A DNA stretch of 64,000 bases. Source: Oerskovia paurometabola. Lineage in GTDB: Bacteria > Actinomycetota > Actinomycetes > Actinomycetales > Cellulomonadaceae. Below are positions 13,372 to 21,883 of this stretch, in pieces. Within the stretch, counting starts at the first letter, position 1. Each line of letters opens with the position of its first letter. Location of the stretch: contig NZ_JAFBBV010000001.1 of the NCBI RefSeq assembly GCF_016907365.1, forward strand, positions 1,550,001 through 1,614,000, in the 5' to 3' direction. The translations under genes and the position numbers were made by a program. The notes beneath the pieces were generated by a model. It saw only the letters and a program-made list of their open reading frames with translations. It searched no databases and was not told the origin of the DNA.

Positions 13372-13677
13372 ATGAATCTCACCCCACGAGAAATGGACAA
13401 GCTGTATGTCTACCAGGTCGCCGACCTGGCACGCAGGCGTCGGGAAAGGGGCACCAAGCTCAATCTCAGCGAGGCCCAGGCGCTGATCTCGGAAGCAATT
13501 CTCGAAGGAGCCCGCGACGGGAAGTCGGTCGCCGAGTGCATGGAGCTCGGAAAGACGATCGTGTCGGAGAAGGACTGTCTCCCGGGAGTCCGTGAGCGGC
13601 TCGCGCTGCTCCAGGTCGAGGCGACGTTCGTCGACGGCAGCAAGCTCGTCTCCTGTCACGACCCCGTGGCGGCCTGA
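13372..13677 (+). CDS. ureA: Urease gamma subunit
   Basis: The smallest urease subunit, 101 residues, which packs in the (UreABC)3 assembly that hydrolyses urea to ammonia and carbamate in the cytoplasm. The typical start MNLTPREMDKL, the RRRRERGTKLNLSEAQALI segment and the DGSKLV strand near the C-terminus are all present and the length is normal. The ATG at 13372 is chosen because upstream in-frame codons are not family-like and a GAAAGG lies about 13 nt before it. It is the first gene of the urease operon, and its stop is only 3 nt from the next ATG, so translation is probably coupled to the CbiX-like gene. Confidence 0.95.
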   Translation: MNLTPREMDKLYVYQVADLARRRRERGTKLNLSEAQALISEAILEGARDGKSVAECMELGKTIVSEKDCLPGVRERLALLQVEATFVDGSKLVSCHDPVAA

Positions 13678-13680
13678 GGT

Positions 13681-14691
13681 ATGGGGTCGGGGGGGCCGGG
13701 GCAGACGCGGCTCGTCCTGGTCGGCGGGCACGAGAGCGCCGACGGGGCGGACGTGCGGTTCGTGGCGGACGGGCTCCCGGGCGTGACCGTCAGCCCGCCG
13801 GGCCGGACGCTCCACAACGCCGTGAGCGCGCTGCTCGCGACGGGCGACGGGCCCGTGGCGGTCCTGCCGATGACGTTCGGCCGGAACCCCACGATGGTCG
13901 CCGACACGGCCAAGACGCTCAAGTGGCTGAGCGTGGGGGCAGGGACGGGTCGGGTGGTCCTGTGCGACGACTTCGGCACGATCGACCACCTGGTCGCCTG
14001 GCTGCGCAGGGCCGCGACCGAGACCGCCGAGCGGCGGCCGGGGGCGGCCCTGGTGATCACGGCGACGTCGTCGAACCCGTTCGACGACGCGGAGCTTCAC
14101 CGGGTCGCGCACCTCGTACGGACGCACGGCGCCGGGCTCCCGGTCGAGGTCGCGTGCGTCGAGGAGGACGCGGAGGTCGCCGAGGCGGTCCGTCGTGCGC
14201 GGCTCCTGGGGTCCACCGAGGCCGTCGTCGTCCCCGCAGGCTTCGCACGGACGAGCGCCGCCCCCTGGGGGATCGGCGAGCTCGCCCGGGCGACGTTCTA
14301 CGGGCCGCTGATGTCGGAGCAGGCGATCCTCCAGGTCGTCCGGCAGCGGCTCGCCGCGGCCGAGCACAGCCTGAGCCACGGCCACGACGGGATCGAGACC
14401 GGTCTGCTCGCGGACCACGGTCACGGGTACGCCCACTCGCACGCCTTCGAGGAGAGCGGCGAGCACGGCGCGGCGGGTCACCAGCACCCGCACCCCCATC
14501 CTCATCCGCACCCCCGCCCGAGCGCCCCGCCGCATCCGTCACCTCACGGCGGCGGGGCGCACACCCACGACACCCACGACACCCACGACATCCACGACAC
14601 AGTCGACGCCGCGCGGCGGGACGCCGACCATCTCGAGCCGCCGGCAGCGCACGGCGTCTCCCACGACGAGGTCCTCGCCCGTCGTCACTGA
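13681..14691 (+). CDS. CbiX-like chelatase-fold protein with His-rich tail, inside the urease operon
   Basis: A 336-residue protein of two CbiX/sirohydrochlorin-chelatase-like halves. The first half begins LVLVGGHESADGAD, where GHES stands for the chelatase GHGS with its metal His kept. The second half (about residues 120-225) has the same fold signature: ALVITATSSNPFDDAELHRVAHLV, then VEVACVEEDAEVAEAV, then TEAVVVPAGFA; its His is replaced by Ala. The tail from about residue 225 is extremely His-rich, about 25 His in 112 residues, including alternating HP pairs and an HDT repeat. It lies between ureA and ureB, and ureE is absent from the operon. I infer a nickel-storage or nickel-delivery role in place of UreE. 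A tetrapyrrole chelatase role is the main alternative. Confidence 0.75.
   Translation: MGSGGPGQTRLVLVGGHESADGADVRFVADGLPGVTVSPPGRTLHNAVSALLATGDGPVAVLPMTFGRNPTMVADTAKTLKWLSVGAGTGRVVLCDDFGTIDHLVAWLRRAATETAERRPGAALVITATSSNPFDDAELHRVAHLVRTHGAGLPVEVACVEEDAEVAEAVRRARLLGSTEAVVVPAGFARTSAAPWGIGELARATFYGPLMSEQAILQVVRQRLAAAEHSLSHGHDGIETGLLADHGHGYAHSHAFEESGEHGAAGHQHPHPHPHPHPRPSAPPHPSPHGGGAHTHDTHDTHDIHDTVDAARRDADHLEPPAAHGVSHDEVLARRH
14562..14597 (+). repeat. Four 9-bp tandem units encoding HD-T/I repeats
   Basis: Four tandem units of CACCCACGA (the last CATCCACGA) encode the THDTHDTHDIHD part of the His-rich tail. Slippage here could change the number of metal-binding His residues. Confidence 0.85.
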
Positions 14692-14760
14692 GCGGTCGCC
14701 AGACCGTCACCGATCCATCGAGAAGCACCACGACGCGAAGCAGCAGCGGAGGGAAGAACG

Positions 14761-15177
14761 ATGCTAGGTAGCCCCAAGTACCACCACACCGATGAGGACA
14801 TCGAGATCAACGCGGGCCGAGAGAAGGTGACGCTCAGGGTGAGCAACACCGGCGACCGCGCCGTGCAGATCGGGTCGCACTTCCACTTCTTCGAGGTGAA
14901 CCGCGCGCTGCTCTTCGAGCGGGAGAAGGCGTACGGCATGCACCTGGACATCCCTGCCGGGACAGGGGTCCGCATCGAGCCTGGAGACTCCCGCGACGTC
15001 ACGCTGACCGCCTTCTCCGGTTCGCGTCACCTCGTCGGCTTCAACAACCTGGTCGACGGCGGGCTCGACTCGCGTCAGACCCGGATCGACTCGCTCGCGC
15101 GCATGACCGAGGGACAGTTCAAGGACGGCAAGCCGACGGCGCGGACCACCGGAGCTGCGAAGAAGGGGAAGAAGTAA
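14761..15177 (+). CDS. ureB: Urease beta subunit
   Basis: A 138-residue structural subunit of urease. The family core is plain: [19 protein letters not shown] (residues 26-45), the [25 protein letters not shown] segment and the FNNLVDG segment. The C-terminal tail (about 112-138) is a lysine-rich extension. A good ribosome binding site, GGAGGGAAG, lies about 8 nt before the ATG. The stop codon overlaps the ureC start by one nucleotide (TAATG), so translation is coupled. Unusually, ureB is separated from ureA by the CbiX-like gene, whereas gamma and beta genes are normally adjacent or fused. Confidence 0.95.
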
Positions 15178-16901
15178 TGGCCATCATCTCCCGCAAGCAG
15201 TACACGGACCTGTTCGGTCCGACCACCGGCGACAAGGTGCACCTCGCGGACTCGAACCTCGTGATCGAGATCGAGAAGGACTACAACGAGGGCCACTACG
15301 GCGACGAGGTCGTCTACGGCGGTGGGAAGACCGCCCGCGACGGCATGGCGGCCGACCCCGAGGCCACCAGCGCGCAGGGCGCACTCGACCTCGTGATCAC
15401 CAACGCCATCATCCTGGACCCGATCCTCGGCGTCGTGAAGGGGGACATCGGCGTCAAGGACGGCAAGATCGCCGGCATCGGCAAGTCGGGCAACCCTCAT
15501 CTGCAGAGCGGGGTCGACCCGCGTCTCGTGGTGGGTGCGACCACCGAGATCCTGGCGGGCGAGCACTGCATCGCCACCGCTGGGGCGTTCGACAGCCACG
15601 TGCACTACATCTCCCCGCAGCAGGCGCAGGCTGCCCTGTCGAACGGCATCACGACGCTCTTCGGTGGTGGGACCGGCCCGACCGACGCGACGAACGGTGT
15701 CACGACGACGCCGGGCGCGTGGCACCTGCACCGCATGATCCAGGCCGCGGAGGACATGCCCGTCAACATGGGCTTCCACGGCAAGGGCAACGGGTCGCTG
15801 CCCGCGCCGCTCGTGGAGCAGATCGAGGCCGGAGCCTCGTCGCTCAAGGTCCATGAGGACTTCGGGGCGACGCCCGCGGTGATCCGCAACGCACTGAGCG
15901 TGGCCGACGAGTTCGACGTCCAGGTCTCGATCCACACCGACAGCCTCAACGAGGCGGGGTTCGTCGAGGACACGCTCTCGGCGATCGACGGCCGCACGAT
16001 CCACACGTACCACACGGAGGGGGCTGGAGGAGGGCACGCACCGGACATCATGAAGGCCGCCGGGTTCCCGAACATCCTGCCCTCCTCGACCAACCCGACC
16101 CTGCCGTACACGGTCAACTCCGTCGACGAGCTGCTCGACATGGTCATGGTGTGCCACCACCTCTCGCACGACATCCCCGAGGACGTCGCCTTCGCGGACT
16201 CCCGTGTCCGCGCCGAGACGATCTCCGCGGAGACCGTGCTCCACGACGAGGGCGTGCTGTCCATGTTCTCGTCCGACTCCCAGGCCATGGGCCGTATCGG
16301 CGAGTCGGTGACGCGGGCCTTCCAGACCGCGCACCACAACAAGGCCGTGCGCGGCCCGTTGCCCGAGGAGACCGGGGACAACGACAACTTCCGCGTGCTG
16401 CGCTACCTGGCGAAGGTGACGATCAACCCGGCGATCACGCAGGGCGTCTCCGACTACGTAGGCTCGCTCGAGCCCGGCAAGATGGCCGACATCGTGCTGT
16501 GGCCCGTCGACTCGTTCGCTGCGAAGCCCAAGGTCGTCGTCAAGGGCGGTCTCATCAACTGGGCCCTCATGGGTGACCCGAACGCGTCGCTGCCCACGCC
16601 CCAGCCCGTGTACTACCGGCCCATGTTCGGCGCCTTCGGACAGGCGCAGCAGGCGACCCGCATCACGTTCATGTCGCAGGCCGCGATCGACAAGGGCGTC
16701 CCGGAACAGCTCGGCCTCAAGAGCCAGGTCCTGCCGGTGCGCCGCTGTCGGGGCATCGGGAAGGAGCACATGGTCCGCAACGACCGCACGCCCGTCATCG
16801 ACGTCGATCCCGAGACGTACAAGGTGACGTTCGACGGCAAGCCCGCGCACATCGAGCCGGCCGAGTCCCTGCCCATGACCCAGCTCTTCTTCCTCGCCTG
16901 A
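15177..16901 (+). CDS. ureC: Urease alpha (catalytic) subunit
   Basis: The 574-residue catalytic subunit with the bi-nickel centre. All key residues are visible: His pair in SHVH (H141, H143), the carbamylated Lys in SSLKVHED (K224), His in SIHTDS, His in HTYHTEG, the flap Cys and catalytic His in VCHHL, the Arg in ADSRVR, and Asp in [10 protein letters not shown]. The length is normal (about 570). It overlaps ureB by 1 nt and is followed after 2 nt by ureF, so the three are one translational unit. Full motif set argues for an active enzyme. Confidence 0.97.
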
Positions 16902-16903
16902 GG

Positions 16904-17620
16904 GTGGTCATGCGGGACACGACCAGCGGGAGGACCGACGTCGGGGCGCTCCTGGTGAGCCTCCAGCTCTCCGACTCCGCCTTCCCGAGCGGCTTCTACA
17001 CGATGTCGCACGGGTTGGAGGGGTTCAGCCAGGCGCGCCTGGTCGACCGGGGCGACGTCGAGGGGCTGCTGACGGGTCTGCTGCGGCACTCGGTGGGTCC
17101 GGGCGACGCGACGGCGCTCGCCCGGGCCCACGACGCGGCGGTGGCCGCCGACTGGGACCAGGTCCAGGAGGTGGACCAGGTGCTGTTCGCCTCGAAGCTC
17201 AACGCCGAGATGCGCAAGGCCTCGGTGCGCAGCGGCCACCAGGTCACGGACCTCGCGCGCGAGGCGATCGGTGGCCCGGGGCTCGAGGAGTGGGGCAGGC
17301 GGATCACGGCCAAGGAGACCCCGGGGTGCCAGCCCGTCGCCACGGCCGTCGCGTACGCCACGACCGGCGTGGGTGTCGAGCAGGCGGTGGCGTCGGACCT
17401 GTTCGCGTTCGCGGTGAGCTTCGTGGGGGCGGCCCTGCGGCTGCGGCTCACGGACCACCGGCACGCGCAGGTGGTGCTCCACGCCGTCGGGCCCGTGATC
17501 GCCGACGTGACCGCCGACGCGGTGGCGCGGGACCTGTCCGACCTGGGCGGGTGCGTGCCGCTCGCCGACGTGATGTCGGCGCAGCACGAGCGGGCCGAGG
17601 CGCGACTGTTCGCGAGCTGA
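16904..17620 (+). CDS. ureF: Urease accessory protein UreF
   Basis: UreF (238 residues from GTG 16904, or 236 from ATG 16910) is an all-helical accessory protein that binds UreD and recruits the UreG GTPase for nickel loading of apo-urease. The family start SLQLSDSAFPSGFYTMSHGLEG is visible near residues 20-40 in two blocks, with TPGCQPVATAVAYA near 140 and the terminal helix that ends in ARLFAS. There is no strong ribosome binding site; the start lies 2 nt after the ureC stop, so coupling is likely. The order ureC-F-G-D is common in actinobacteria. No ureE follows or precedes it. Confidence 0.93.
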   Translation: MVMRDTTSGRTDVGALLVSLQLSDSAFPSGFYTMSHGLEGFSQARLVDRGDVEGLLTGLLRHSVGPGDATALARAHDAAVAADWDQVQEVDQVLFASKLNAEMRKASVRSGHQVTDLAREAIGGPGLEEWGRRITAKETPGCQPVATAVAYATTGVGVEQAVASDLFAFAVSFVGAALRLRLTDHRHAQVVLHAVGPVIADVTADAVARDLSDLGGCVPLADVMSAQHERAEARLFAS

Positions 17621-17686
17621 GGACAGCCGAGGACCCTGCACGAGACGTAGCCAGAAGAAGCACGACGAGAGAGACGAGGCAGTCGA

Positions 17687-18322
17687 ATGAGCGAGAACGT
17701 CCTGAGGATCGGCATCGGCGGACCGGTGGGTTCGGGCAAGACCGCGCTCACGGAGGCGCTGGTGCCCAAGTTGTTCGCGGCCGGGCGCCAGCCGGCCGTC
17801 ATCACGAACGACATCTACACGCAGGAGGACGCGCAGCACGTGCGACGCGAGCTCGCGGGCATCCTCGACCCCGAGCGGGTCGTGGGCGTCGAGACGGGCG
17901 CCTGCCCGCACACGGCGGTGCGCGACGACCCGACCATGAACCTCGCGGCGGGCGCGGAGATGCTCGAGAAGTTCCCCGAGGTCGACACGCTGATCTACGA
18001 GTCGGGCGGCGACAACCTGACGCTCACCTTCTCGCCGTCGCTCGCGGACGTGTTCATCTTCGTGCTCGACACCTCGGAGGGCGAGAAGATGCCGCGCAAA
18101 CGAGGTCCGGGCATCACCGAGTCGGACATCCTGGTGATCAACAAGATCGACATCGCGCAGTACGTGCGGACGAACCTGGTGACCATGGAGGCGGACGCGC
18201 GCCGCGTGCGCGACGGCAAGCCCGTCGTGCTCACCAACTCGTTGACGGGCGAGGGGCTCGACGAGCTGTACGAGCAGATCTTCGTGCTCTGGAACGGCCG
18301 TCGAGACGCTCTCGTCGGATGA
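17687..18322 (+). CDS. ureG: Urease accessory GTPase UreG
   Basis: A 211-residue SIMIBI-class GTPase that couples GTP hydrolysis to nickel delivery into urease. The P-loop is GGPVGSGKTALTEAL (residues 8-22); the switch regions show NDIYTQEDA and ESGGDNLT; the invariant nickel motif CPH is in VETGACPHTAVRDD near residue 68; and the guanine-base motif NKID is in VINKIDIA. No His-rich N-terminal extension is present, unlike many UreGs, which fits with the His store lying on the CbiX-like protein instead. Its stop overlaps the ureD start by 4 nt (ATGA). Confidence 0.96.
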   Translation: MSENVLRIGIGGPVGSGKTALTEALVPKLFAAGRQPAVITNDIYTQEDAQHVRRELAGILDPERVVGVETGACPHTAVRDDPTMNLAAGAEMLEKFPEVDTLIYESGGDNLTLTFSPSLADVFIFVLDTSEGEKMPRKRGPGITESDILVINKIDIAQYVRTNLVTMEADARRVRDGKPVVLTNSLTGEGLDELYEQIFVLWNGRRDALVG

Positions 18323-19422
18323 GCGCGGAGCTCGTGACCGACGTGCCCGACGCCGCGCCGCTGCGCGCGGTGCCGGGTGAGCCCGGGGGTGCGACCAGCG
18401 ACGGCAGAGCGTCGAGCGCCGCTTCCACGACCGGGGCGGGTCGTCCGGGAGGCATCTCGTGGCGTGGCAGTGGGTCGGGCTACGGCGGCTACCGCCTGGA
18501 GCCCGCGCACTACGAGCCGGAGCGCGTCCCCCAGGAGGTGCTGCGCCACAGCAGCACGCCCGACACGCTGGCAGCGGGCAGCCCGGGCAAGGTCGGCCTC
18601 CTGGAGCTCGAGTTCGCCAGGAACGATCGCGGCACCGAGCTGGTCCACCACTACCAGAAGTCGCCGCTGCAGATCATGCGTCCGCTGTACTACGACCCGC
18701 TGCGGCCCGACATGCCCTACACGTACCTGATGTCGACGGGGGGCGGCATCCTGCAGGCGGACCGGCTCCGGACCGACCTGCTGTTCGGGCCCGGCAGCTC
18801 GGCCCACGTCACGACGTCGGCGCACAGCAAGGTCTACCGGATGGAGCACGACTACGCGGTGGCCCAGACGAACGTCGTCGTCGCTGAGGACGCCTACGTC
18901 GAGTACCTGCCCGAGCCCGTGATCCCGTTCGCCGACTCGCGGTTCTACCAGCGCACGTGCGTCACGCTGCACGAGTCGGGCACCCTCGTCGCAGGGGAGA
19001 CGGTCTTCGCGGGTCGCCTGGCCCGCGACGAGAGGCACCGGTACGCGGTCTTCGCCTCGGACTTCGAGGTGCGCCGCCCGGACGGGCGGATCGTCGCGCT
19101 CGACCGCGTCCGCCTCGTCCCCGAGGACGGGCGGACCGGGGGGCTCGCGGTGCTGGGCGACCGGGACGTCCTGGCGATGCTCTACGTCCTCACCCCGCTC
19201 GTGCCCCCCACGCAGCTTGCCGACCTGCTGCACTCGGTGCTCGCCGAACGGTTCGAGGAGGACCTCTTCATCGGTGTCAGCGCCCTGCCGGGGGACGCCG
19301 GTGTCTGGGTGCGCATCGTGGGCGACGACACGGGCGCCGTCGCGTGCGCCAACACGGTGGCCTGGCGTGCGGTGCACCAGGTCCTCACGGGGATCGAAGC
19401 ACCGCTGATCCGGAAGAGCTGA
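18319..19422 (+). CDS. ureD: Urease accessory protein UreD (UreH)
   Basis: A 367-residue scaffold protein that binds apo-urease and, with UreF and UreG, forms the nickel-loading complex. The core begins near residue 90 with KVGLLELEFARND and includes PLQIMRPLYYD, MSTGGGILQADRL, TTSAHSKVYRME, EYLPEPVIPFADSRFYQ and VRIVGDD, all family hallmarks. The N-terminal 80-90 residues are low complexity and rich in Gly, Ser and Ala, with GSGSGYGGYR, and are not part of the usual UreD domain. The start at 18319 overlaps the ureG stop (ATGA); a shorter start cannot be excluded. Confidence 0.92.
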   Translation: MSAELVTDVPDAAPLRAVPGEPGGATSDGRASSAASTTGAGRPGGISWRGSGSGYGGYRLEPAHYEPERVPQEVLRHSSTPDTLAAGSPGKVGLLELEFARNDRGTELVHHYQKSPLQIMRPLYYDPLRPDMPYTYLMSTGGGILQADRLRTDLLFGPGSSAHVTTSAHSKVYRMEHDYAVAQTNVVVAEDAYVEYLPEPVIPFADSRFYQRTCVTLHESGTLVAGETVFAGRLARDERHRYAVFASDFEVRRPDGRIVALDRVRLVPEDGRTGGLAVLGDRDVLAMLYVLTPLVPPTQLADLLHSVLAERFEEDLFIGVSALPGDAGVWVRIVGDDTGAVACANTVAWRAVHQVLTGIEAPLIRKS

Positions 19423-19471
19423 GGCTCGACCCCACCCGTCGGACCGATCCAGGAACAGCAAGGGAGATGAC

Positions 19472-20407
19472 ATGACAGCGACGAACGCCTCGGCGGCCGC
19501 GCCCTCGAGTGCCACGGCGGTGACAGGTGCCTCGCTCGCTCACGGCCTGTCCCAGATCTTCTTCCAGAAGAACGTCTGGACCGGTCTGCTGATCCTGGCC
19601 GCCTTCGTGGTCGCGGACTGGCGCATGGCCCTGCTCGTGGTCGTGGGCACCGTCGCGTCGACCGCCGCGGGCTACCTCATGAGGGTCGGTGCGGACAACG
19701 TCGAGATGGGCATGCAGGGATTCTGCGGCGCCCTGGTCGGTGCCGCGGTCTACGCGGCGATGGGCGGCGACCAGGCCTGGTCGTACGTGGTCGCGCTGGT
19801 CGGTGGCCTCCTGTGCGCACCGGTGACGTGGTTCTTCGTGTGGTTGTTCGGCACCGAGCCGCTCAAGCGTTTCGCGCTGCCCGCGACGACGGCCCCGTTC
19901 TGCACGGTCGCCGGGATCATGTACGTCACGACCACGAGCCTGCACGTGTCCTCGGCAGGCACGCACGTGGCCGACGACACCACGACGGCCTTCTTCCGCT
20001 CCCTGCTGACCAACGTGTCGGAGGTCGTCCTGGTCAACAGCGTGTGGGCCGGCGCGCTGATCCTGCTGGGCCTGTTCGTCGCGTCGTGGAAGGTAGGCCT
20101 GGCGGCCGTCATGGGCAGCGTGGTCGGGAGCCTGTGCGCGCTCGCGTTCGGCGAGAACCTCCAGAACACGGCCAACGGCCTCAACGGCTACTCCGGGGTC
20201 CTGACGGCGATCGCGCTCGCGGTCGTGTTCCTGCGCAGCACGACCGCGTCGTGGGTGTACGCGCTCGTCGGCACGATCGCGACCGCCGCCGTGACGATCC
20301 TCATGCACGACCTCACGAGCGGCCCCGTCTACACCTGGCCGTACATCCTCACGACGTGGGTCTTCCTGATCATCGCGACCTTCGTCCCGGCGCTCAAGCG
20401 TCCCTGA
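19472..20407 (+). CDS. Urea transporter (UT family)
   Basis: A 311-residue inner-membrane channel-like urea transporter of the UT/SLC14 type. About ten transmembrane segments are visible in two homologous halves: the first contains MGMQGFCGALVGAAVY (about residues 78-93) and the second NGLNGYSGVLTAIAL (about 235-249), the repeated loops that line the pore in characterised UT proteins. An RBS-like AAGGGAGATG precedes the ATG. It ends the urease operon and supplies the substrate. A perfect 18-bp hairpin follows its stop after 27 nt. A UreI or ABC-type importer is ruled out by the topology. Confidence 0.9.
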   Translation: MTATNASAAAPSSATAVTGASLAHGLSQIFFQKNVWTGLLILAAFVVADWRMALLVVVGTVASTAAGYLMRVGADNVEMGMQGFCGALVGAAVYAAMGGDQAWSYVVALVGGLLCAPVTWFFVWLFGTEPLKRFALPATTAPFCTVAGIMYVTTTSLHVSSAGTHVADDTTTAFFRSLLTNVSEVVLVNSVWAGALILLGLFVASWKVGLAAVMGSVVGSLCALAFGENLQNTANGLNGYSGVLTAIALAVVFLRSTTASWVYALVGTIATAAVTILMHDLTSGPVYTWPYILTTWVFLIIATFVPALKRP

Positions 20408-20541: not shown

Positions 20542-20919
20542 TCAGAGCGAGGCGCCCCAGCGGTAGCCCACGTAGGCCAGCGCGACGCACACCACGAGGA
20601 TGCCGATCGAGTAGGCGAACGCCGTCCCGTAGCGCTTCTGCCGGACGAGCTGGACGGCCTCGTAGCTCGCGGTGCTGAACGTCGTGTAGCCCCCGAGGAA
20701 GCCCGTCCCGATCACGGCGCTGACGTCGGTCGAGGCGATCTTGCTGACGACCAGGCCGGTCAGGACGCCCAGGACGAGCGAGCCCGACATGTTGATGATC
20801 GCGGTGGGCCAGGGGAAGGCCGTCTTGACCTTCGAGCGGATCAGTCCGTCGACCACGAAGCGCGTGCCCGCGCCCAGGCCGCCTGCGATCGCGAGGAGGA
20901 GGAAGATACCGAGGGCCAT
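20542..20919 (-). CDS. crcB: CrcB/Fluc fluoride channel, subunit 2
   Basis: A 125-residue fluoride exporter of the Fluc type with four transmembrane helices. Signature residues are visible: LGAGTRFVVDGLI in helix 1, NMSGSLVLGVLTG in helix 2 (the polar Asn), and TGFLGGYTTFSTASYE, the phenylalanine-box and central sodium-site motif in helix 3. It is translated from ATG 20919, which lies inside the end of the preceding crcB gene (79-nt overlap). Paired crcB genes usually encode a heterodimeric channel, with the two proteins inserted in opposite orientation. Confidence 0.93.
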   Translation of the reverse strand: MALGIFLLLAIAGGLGAGTRFVVDGLIRSKVKTAFPWPTAIINMSGSLVLGVLTGLVVSKIASTDVSAVIGTGFLGGYTTFSTASYEAVQLVRQKRYGTAFAYSIGILVVCVALAYVGYRWGASL

Positions 20920-21365
20920 CGCGGTGCCCCCTCGCTCGTCGGCTGCTTCTGCGCGTTCACCTTGGTCGCCACCACGATGCCCGCGAACGTCGCGACCGCA
21001 CCGACGAGCACGGTCGCCAGGACGTAGACGAGGGCGAGGTCGGCGCGGTCCTTGACGAGCAGGACGGCCGTGTCGGTGGCCAGCGAGCTGTAGGTCGTGA
21101 AGCCGCCGCAGAAGCCGGTACCGAGGAGCAGCTTGAGCCGGGGGCCACGCGGGTCGCCCGGCAGGCGGCGGGCCACGGCCTCGTAGAGGTAGCCCAGCAG
21201 GAACGCCCCGACGATGTTGACGATCGGGATCGCGATCGGCATCTGGTCGATGTCAGGGACCGCGAGCGAGACGCCCTCGCGCCCCGCGGCGCCGAACGCT
21301 CCGCCGATCATGACGAGACCGATGGAGGCCCAGCGCAGGTAGCTGGGCCTGGCCGCGGCGGCCAT
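20841..21365 (-). CDS. crcB: CrcB/Fluc fluoride channel, subunit 1
   Basis: A 174-residue fluoride channel subunit, partner of the next gene. Motifs are IGGAFGAAGREGV in helix 1, IVNIVGAFLLGYLYE in helix 2 and TGFCGGFTTYSSLATD in helix 3. It is about 45 residues longer than usual: its C-terminal Ser- and Arg-rich tail is read through the first 79 nt of the following crcB gene in another frame, so the tail may be functionally neutral. The ATG at 21365 overlaps the stop of the universal stress protein gene by one nucleotide (TGATG), so the three form an operon. No fluoride riboswitch was seen ahead of the operon. Confidence 0.9.
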   Translation of the reverse strand: MAAAARPSYLRWASIGLVMIGGAFGAAGREGVSLAVPDIDQMPIAIPIVNIVGAFLLGYLYEAVARRLPGDPRGPRLKLLLGTGFCGGFTTYSSLATDTAVLLVKDRADLALVYVLATVLVGAVATFAGIVVATKVNAQKQPTSEGAPRWPSVSSSSSRSQAAWARARASWSTD

Positions 21366-21883
21366 CAGCGCGTCACCCAGGGCAGCGGCGACTCGACGCC
21401 GGGGGCCCGTGCAGGGACGACGACCACGGGGCGGTTCTGCCGGTGCGCGAGGTGGACCGCGATCGAGCGGTTGAAGAACTCCTGGACACCGCCGCCGAAC
21501 CCGCGCTCGTGCGTCCCGACCACGATCATCGCGGCGTCGACCGTCTCGGCGAGGTGGCCCAGGGCGTCGGCCGTGTCCCCGACCAGGAGCCGCGTGCTCC
21601 ACCGCACCCCGCTCGGGTCGAGCACCGCCGCGAGCCGGGCCGCGAGCGCGGGGTCGAACTCGTCCTCGCGCTCGTCGTGGTAGTCCGGGTCGATCGGGGC
21701 CGACGTCACCGCCCCGGCAGAGTCCTCCGCGACCGCGAAGCGGCCCGCGTTCACGTGCGCGCAGATCAGCTCGGCGCCGAACTGTGCTGCGAAGCGGGCC
21801 GCGTCGTGGACGACGTGGTCGGGCTGCCCGGGGGACACGCCCAGGACGACGGGTTGCGGGTCGAGCCCTCTGTTCTCTCCCAT
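21365..21883 (-). CDS. Universal stress protein, UspA family
   Basis: A 172-residue single-domain UspA protein. It has the fold order beta-alpha, with VVLGVSPGQPDHVVHDAARFAAQ at the start, and the ATP-binding loop GTHERGFGGGVQEFFNRSIAVHL near residues 122-145 (G-2x-G-9x-G/S pattern, with S at the end), so it should bind ATP. An acidic insertion (about 50-80) is present. It leads the crcB pair, with its stop touching the first crcB start. A TACGCT hexamer lies 6 nt before the ATG, indicating a leaderless message. The link between a stress protein and fluoride channels is contextual only. Confidence 0.88.
   Translation of the reverse strand: MGENRGLDPQPVVLGVSPGQPDHVVHDAARFAAQFGAELICAHVNAGRFAVAEDSAGAVTSAPIDPDYHDEREDEFDPALAARLAAVLDPSGVRWSTRLLVGDTADALGHLAETVDAAMIVVGTHERGFGGGVQEFFNRSIAVHLAHRQNRPVVVVPARAPGVESPLPWVTR

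Follow-up and report, generated by a model that had tools for sequence, protein, structure and literature searches.

The urease operon of Oerskovia paurometabola and gene X

We analyzed a 64,000-nt stretch of the Oerskovia paurometabola genome (RefSeq assembly GCF_016907365.1, contig NZ_JAFBBV010000001.1, positions 1,550,001 to 1,614,000), referred to here as the window; the whole genome comprises 4,326,429 bases in one contig. The window contains a forward-strand urease operon in which an additional gene, X, encoding a CbiX-L-derived protein with a His-rich tail, lies between ureA and ureB. Pfam and NCBIfam family searches back the order ureA-X-ureB-ureC-ureF-ureG-ureD-UT. The gene for the urease gamma subunit, ureA (13372..13677; Pfam Urease_gamma, expectation value (E) 1.7e-39), is followed by X (13681..14691), with 3 nt from the ureA stop to the X start, a spacing identical in four further loci (L003-L006). 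Downstream lie ureB for the beta subunit (14761..15177; Pfam Urease_beta, 1.2e-40), ureC for the alpha subunit (15177..16901; TIGR01792 urease_alph, 3.5e-273), ureF (16904..17620; Pfam UreF, 6.9e-34), ureG (17687..18322; TIGR00101, 5.1e-73), ureD, also named ureH (18319..19422; Pfam UreD, 4.2e-48), which overlaps ureG in an ATGA, and a gene for a UT-family urea transporter (19472..20407; Pfam UT, 1.1e-63). UreG begins with MSENVLRIGIG ahead of its P-loop and has no His there and no His-rich N-terminal extension. A preliminary description of this DNA had placed a 336-residue protein between ureA and ureB, 3 nt from ureA, in an operon with ureF, ureG and ureD but no ureE, and with a UreG free of a His-rich extension; all of this was borne out. 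A promoter and terminator scan of the operon found none.

Protein X is hhalign-alignable to CbiX and divides into three parts. The first chelatase-like half, residues 10-118 (13708..14034), and the second, residues 121-232 (14041..14376), were delimited with an AlphaFold2 model, the first also with alignments, while the second includes the stretch matched by Pfam CbiX (130-186). Sites in the first half comprise His17 (13729-13731), Glu18, Thr71 (13891-13893), which occupies the position of the second catalytic His, and the invariant His103 (13987-13989). A region with the conserved motif ADHGHGYAHSH and the His-rich tail follow in residues 241-336 (14401..14688), with 22 His in 96 residues. 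Across the last 112 residues (225-336) we counted 25 His, matching the earlier estimate of about 25. The densest 60-residue stretch (at 14416) holds 18 His, the highest value among the 215 stop-to-stop frames of at least 150 residues within the window, where the runner-up reaches 12. In all 16 X homologues counted, the tail consists of 17-38% His.

Fold and metal site of X

To relate X to known families, profile, structure and family searches were combined. An X profile aligned by hhalign with 12 ordinary actinobacterial CbiX proteins (alignment A2, with L022 trimmed ahead of its C-terminal extra part) over 225 columns (99.0%, E 7.3e-18). The AlphaFold2 model, built from a 12-row alignment, shows two lobes and a chelatase fold (mean predicted local distance difference test score 86, predicted template modelling score 0.83). 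Its top Foldseek match was the cobalt chelatase CbiK (1QGO; E 3.6e-5, template modelling score (TM) 0.58), and the other matches at E <=0.001 were mostly chelatases, namely CbiK 2XVZ (2.1e-4), 6JV6 (3.0e-4), ferrochelatases and SirB, along with FetB at rank 2 and an N-methyl-D-aspartate receptor chain. In family-model searches, Pfam CbiX scored 21.7 bits with full-length X and 22.6 bits with residues 1-259 at a cut-off of 22, a whole-genome CbiX search listed only the genome's other CbiX, and an NCBIfam scan of X gave no match. Searching the sequences of solved structures with X returned nothing convincing (best chelatase E 0.82; a designed triosephosphate isomerase barrel, E 0.0079). X is a distant CbiX-L relative, and its two-lobed chelatase fold is homologous to the class II sirohydrochlorin chelatases. 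The two chelatase-like halves of the preliminary description are thereby confirmed, by alignment and model alike; its label 'CbiX/CfbA-type' is better narrowed to CbiX-L.

Among the solved folds, FetB of Porphyromonas gingivalis (9B86; E 1.4e-4, TM 0.43-0.44) represents a chelatase-like fold that serves ligand binding and not catalysis. It differs from X in binding heme rather than nickel and in phylum and context, and we know of no His tail in FetB. Weaker Foldseek matches of X included periplasmic-binding proteins and PrpR. Together with the position of the gene between ureA and ureB and its tight coupling to ureA, these would suit a regulator linked to nickel or urea, or a protein that partners UreA/UreB structurally, with an incidental tail. 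Since the top fold and profile matches are chelatases, a Pfam scan of X gave no DNA-binding domain (and no UreE domain) and the tail is kept in 16/16 homologues, we give such a role very little chance.

The resemblance to CbiX-L (Bacillus megaterium type, PF01903) comprises two fused CbiX halves, the first His in the N-terminal half and a His-rich C-terminal tail; the differences concentrate at the metal site. In SirB this site is formed by His10, Glu43 and His76 (PMC11301274), and the paired catalytic His of B. megaterium CbiX-L, His14 and His79, lie in a single lobe (PMC7689651). Both catalytic His are present in all 12 ordinary CbiX of A2, and the third ligand is acidic in each (10 Glu, 2 Asp). 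Among 18 X members, the first catalytic His (His17) is kept in 17, whereas the second is found in none, its position being taken by Thr, Val, Glu, Ser, Arg, Lys or Ala. At the stretch of the X alignment corresponding to Glu43 of SirB there is no conserved acidic residue, a ligand that is not strict even within CfbA (PMC11301274). Thus, although X shares the class II fold with SirB and CfbA, it retains only the His10 equivalent. The MxCxxC iron-sulfur motif of CbiX-L is missing as well, with no CxxC in any of 16 X proteins; ordinary CbiX carry CDxC before the tail in 10/12 cases (six as MNCDxC) and a His-containing tail in 9/12. X has therefore lost some of the metal site typical of chelatases, and its His-rich tail is a trait that ordinary CbiX-L shows as well. 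Beyond Pfam scores close to the cut-off, location in a urease operon sets X apart from CbiX-L.

One reading of these data is that X still acts as a chelatase, inserting nickel or cobalt into a tetrapyrrole, and that its place in the operon reflects a shared nickel supply. The CbiX fold and the first catalytic His of 17/18 members agree with this, and nickel insertion is possible for SirB and CfbA (PMC11301274). The second His is, however, gone from 18/18 members, the acidic ligand is not conserved, X follows urease genes and the genome has a separate CbiX, identified with Pfam, that adjoins frames reading as nirB/nirD and a uroporphyrinogen methyltransferase. Urease, moreover, requires no tetrapyrrole. 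We consider an active chelatase very improbable, if ranked above a regulator or structural partner; X has probably ceased to be a chelatase. A candidate function as siroheme chelatase was rejected, as the separate CbiX beside siroheme-type genes means that X is not needed for it.

Distribution of X, UreE and His-rich UreG

Scanning genome contigs, a search that reaches close relatives only, retrieved 12 relatives with 41-82% identity, and the closest fetched homologue, from Oerskovia enterophila, is 82% identical. In a draw of 297 genomes from the order, X occurred in five (E <=1e-12), all with Urease_alpha, which was present in 87-89 of the 297. A phylum draw of 396 genomes gave 22 matches at E 1e-5, but only those in the window's genome and in one further genome (G246) exceeded 200 bits, and both of these carriers have urease; the remaining 20 scored 27-40 bits, and the 11 of them that were aligned proved to be ordinary CbiX. 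The same two carriers emerged from a class draw of 236 genomes. X was also present on two Streptomycetaceae plasmid records (Embleya and Streptomyces). The named host families are Cellulomonadaceae, Nocardioidaceae, Microbacteriaceae, Nocardiaceae, Catenulisporaceae and Streptomycetaceae. Wherever a locus held both ureA and ureB, X lay between them on the same strand (17/17 distinct loci, including L215); in L011 the contig ends after ureA-X. The earlier proposal is supported in that a chelatase fold was recruited into a urease operon; the linkage holds at every locus with the neighbours, and the metal site is partly lost.

G246 has three ureases (L149, L173 and L211): an X operon, an operon with His-rich UreG and one without ureF and ureG in the fetched stretch. 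The Embleya plasmid locus (L214; NZ_CP108777.1, 6659-8135) contains open frames for X and ureB and a UT fragment, with neither ureA nor ureC detected in 14.7 kb, and is a decayed or rearranged operon.

For comparison across operons, we examined 177 loci, of which 131 were non-duplicate and held ureA, ureB, ureC, ureF and ureG (15 with X, 116 without). A UreG was classed as His-rich when its N-terminal extension, whose start was estimated, held at least 3 His; two start-codon rules (any start, or ATG/GTG preferred) disagree in cases such as L067 and L119. Three loci needed individual treatment: L159, with no readable P-loop, was counted as having neither element; L123, on the same contig as L003, was omitted from operon counts and trees; and L129, whose UreE was missed by our own first profile, was assigned to the UreE class by the UreE_N search, with which a second profile agreed. 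UreE or a His-rich UreG start occurred in 0/15 X operons versus 56/116 others (Fisher test for exclusivity, p 1.4e-4). The 116 operons divide into 22 with UreE (one also with His-rich UreG), 34 with His-rich UreG and no UreE, and 60 with neither. The urea transporter gene is present in 15/15 complete X operons but only 3/116 others. For many further urease structural sets (L128, L130-L148, L150-L152, L204-L213), neither ureF nor ureG was detected in the sequence fetched around them, which contig ends cut short in some cases; several of these sets are ordered ureB-ureA-ureC.

At the genome level, UreE_N had no match in the whole O. paurometabola genome, where the same search was positive in 2/14 control genomes, and HypA likewise gave 0 matches in the genome. 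A ureE elsewhere, which by the preliminary description would have undermined its case, was thus not found in the genome. UreE_N also matched in none of the 17 X carrier genomes searched, a set to which the two plasmid carriers do not belong. The X carriers of the draws all have urease (5/5 in the order draw, 2/2 strong matches in the phylum draw). Lack of the domain is, however, common in this survey: it exceeded the cut-off in 18 of the 297 order-draw genomes and in 4/46 urease genomes outside the order. With Urease_alpha present in 87-89 of the same 297, the shift of the UreE role to X that the preliminary description proposed cannot be derived from the absence of UreE by itself.

Phylogenetic trees were inferred for UreC and UreG from 128 of the 177 loci, leaving out those without ureG or ureC, L079, L099, L105, L108, L123, L157 and the short rows L106, L175 and L192. 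A smaller UreC tree used 53 chosen loci of the 128, and a UreA+C+F+G tree used 52, with L129 omitted for its long branch and ureB and ureD not included. X operons formed one clade in all of them (UreC 100, 53-locus UreC 100/100, UreG 99, UreA+C+F+G 100/100). Their sister is L125 (98, 100/99, 97 and 100/100, respectively), an operon with neither X nor UreE, from a genome (G439) absent from the X and UreE_N matches; its UreG extension has 6 His, and a UT gene is adjacent on the opposite strand. The next neighbours are the UreE operons L179 and L189 (100/99, UreA+C+F+G), joined in the UreG tree by L129 (98). A clade on the UreE side of the UreG tree (family f19; L168, L169, L171, L184, L201, L203) has no UreE, His-rich UreG or X. 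The most parsimonious reading is that the lineage shared by L125 and the X operons lost UreE, with His-rich UreG in one branch and X in the other; drawn from few lineages in an unrooted tree, this inference gives replacement its strongest individual support. Carriers without UreE, and nearest operons with His-rich UreG or UreE, lend the earlier interpretation partial support.

Selection acts on both portions of X. The ratio of nonsynonymous to synonymous substitution rates (dN/dS) between X and its L003 homologue is 0.18 in the folded part and 0.21 in the tail, indicating purifying selection, and values of 0.15-0.25 were obtained for folded part and tail in two Microbacterium pairs. Glu18, Arg68, His103, Arg223, His252 and His254 are each kept in 18/18 members. 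These data bear on the possibility that X is a hitchhiking CbiX-L copy without function in a horizontally spreading urease operon. A single clade distributed patchily across distant families, with two Streptomycetaceae plasmid records, is what such spread would produce, but purifying selection, a position kept 17/17 and X-specific invariant residues are not, and we give this explanation almost no credence.

Predicted role in nickel supply

We consider it probable that X is a CbiX-L paralogue that lost part of its chelatase site and assists this urease as an accessory protein that binds nickel. X most likely handles nickel where UreE is absent, as a predicted reservoir or chaperone, with genomic context pointing to nickel as the metal. 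In the proposed mechanism, the His-rich tail would collect or buffer Ni(II), and the remodelled site of the N-terminal lobe (His17, Glu18, His103) and the HGYAHSH motif may hold or pass on the metal. Nickel would then reach UreG in the UreD-UreF-UreG complex, directly or via the cell pool, which is the step served by UreE elsewhere; X would accordingly be expected to hand its metal to UreG. Cobalt insertion by CbiX-L does not depend on its C-terminal region, for which a part in metal storage and delivery has been proposed (PMC7689651), and X, judged by its sequence, looks like a CbiX-L that retained this region while losing part of the enzyme metal site. Going further, X may be a second, unrelated urease metallochaperone, a decommissioned cobaltochelatase that displaced UreE and is predicted to bind nickel at the rebuilt lobe of the old active site and the His tail before passing it to UreG. 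We put this forward tentatively, with somewhat more doubt than belief.

Several observations weigh against nickel handling by X in place of UreE. As 60/116 operons without X have neither UreE nor His-rich UreG, the absence of UreE by itself demands no substitute, and we rejected it as an argument for replacement. Because X forms a single clade, the Fisher p value counts as approximately one evolutionary event. In all 17 ureE operons inspected, ureE sits between ureC and ureF, unlike X. Support for the position of the UreE neighbours is weak in the UreC-only tree (62/46), as it is for the branch that sets UreE and X operons apart from all others (80/26, UreA+C+F+G). The His tail is already present in ordinary CbiX-L (9/12 in A2), His-rich tails bind other metals as well and the first catalytic His, persisting in 17/18 X, leaves chelatase activity possible. 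UreG type was also tried as a predictor, a P-loop start of GIGG or GVGG foretelling UreE, His-rich UreG or X. This rule seemed to hold in the order, failed outside it in 17/43 complete operons, which pair such a UreG with neither UreE nor 3 His, and was rejected: the UreE operons L154 and L155 carry the other UreG type, and even inside the order the outcome depends on the start codon, L119 having 4 or fewer than 3 His by the two rules.

A search for hidden His-rich genes covered 12 operons: L125, six that lack UreE, and five with UreE, three of which are neighbours of X in the UreG tree. In L154 a single His-rich stretch fell within the ureE frame; other matches lay in frames not taken for genes.

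The main rival is storage without specific transfer. X would then be a nickel (or zinc or cobalt) store or detoxifier similar to Hpn, buffering metal during heavy urease synthesis. A tail kept in 16/16 homologues, many surveyed ureases without such a gene (60/116) and a urea transporter in every complete X operon, which fits high flux, are all compatible with a store. A mere store, however, would seem to require neither a folded part as constrained as that of X (dN/dS 0.15-0.24 across three pairs) nor residues invariant in 18 members, and X remained with urease genes in the genome draws. We therefore judge pure storage unlikely, though clearly ahead of the other rivals.

Hpn and Hpn-2 of Helicobacter are small, lack a chelatase fold and are encoded outside the urease operon. 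Both are rich in His, bind nickel and have a link to urease (PMC4671568). UreE (PF02814) is, like X, encoded by an accessory gene within the urease operon alongside ureF, ureG and ureD, and many UreE proteins have a terminal His-rich tail adding nickel-binding capacity (PMC13044922); X differs in lacking a sequence match and in lying between ureA and ureB rather than ureC and ureF, and its nickel binding and contact with UreG are predicted. UreG proteins with a His-rich extension likewise equip a maturation factor of urease with a His-rich segment in the absence of UreE, as in the sister operon L125, whereas X operons carry such a segment on a protein of its own, their UreG being free of it. 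A search of titles and abstract openings among open-access papers found nothing about urease operons containing a CbiX-like gene, or about such a gene as a urease accessory. An actinobacterial cluster of ureABC, ureFGD and nixA has been reported, and 'ureE' does not occur in that paper's text (PMC12113805). If the proposed role is true, X would exemplify non-orthologous replacement: an enzyme whose catalytic site is partly gone, but whose metal-handling tail was retained, would stand in for a textbook metallochaperone. It would also hint at what the tail of CbiX-L does, given that deleting this tail leaves cobalt insertion unaffected. The system bears on the nickel supply of UreE-less ureases, as related operons with UreE, with His-rich UreG, with X or with none of the three lend themselves to direct comparison.

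Two minor features of the window were recorded in addition. The Rfam family 5' ureB sRNA (small RNA; RF02514) matched with 71.4 bits at 15338-15633 on the minus strand, antisense to ureC. Since the family has its origin in sequence opposite a Helicobacter urease gene, the match may merely mirror conserved coding sequence. Beyond the operon, at 20542-21602 on the minus strand, two adjacent frames resemble a CrcB/FluC fluoride channel pair, judged from their translations alone.

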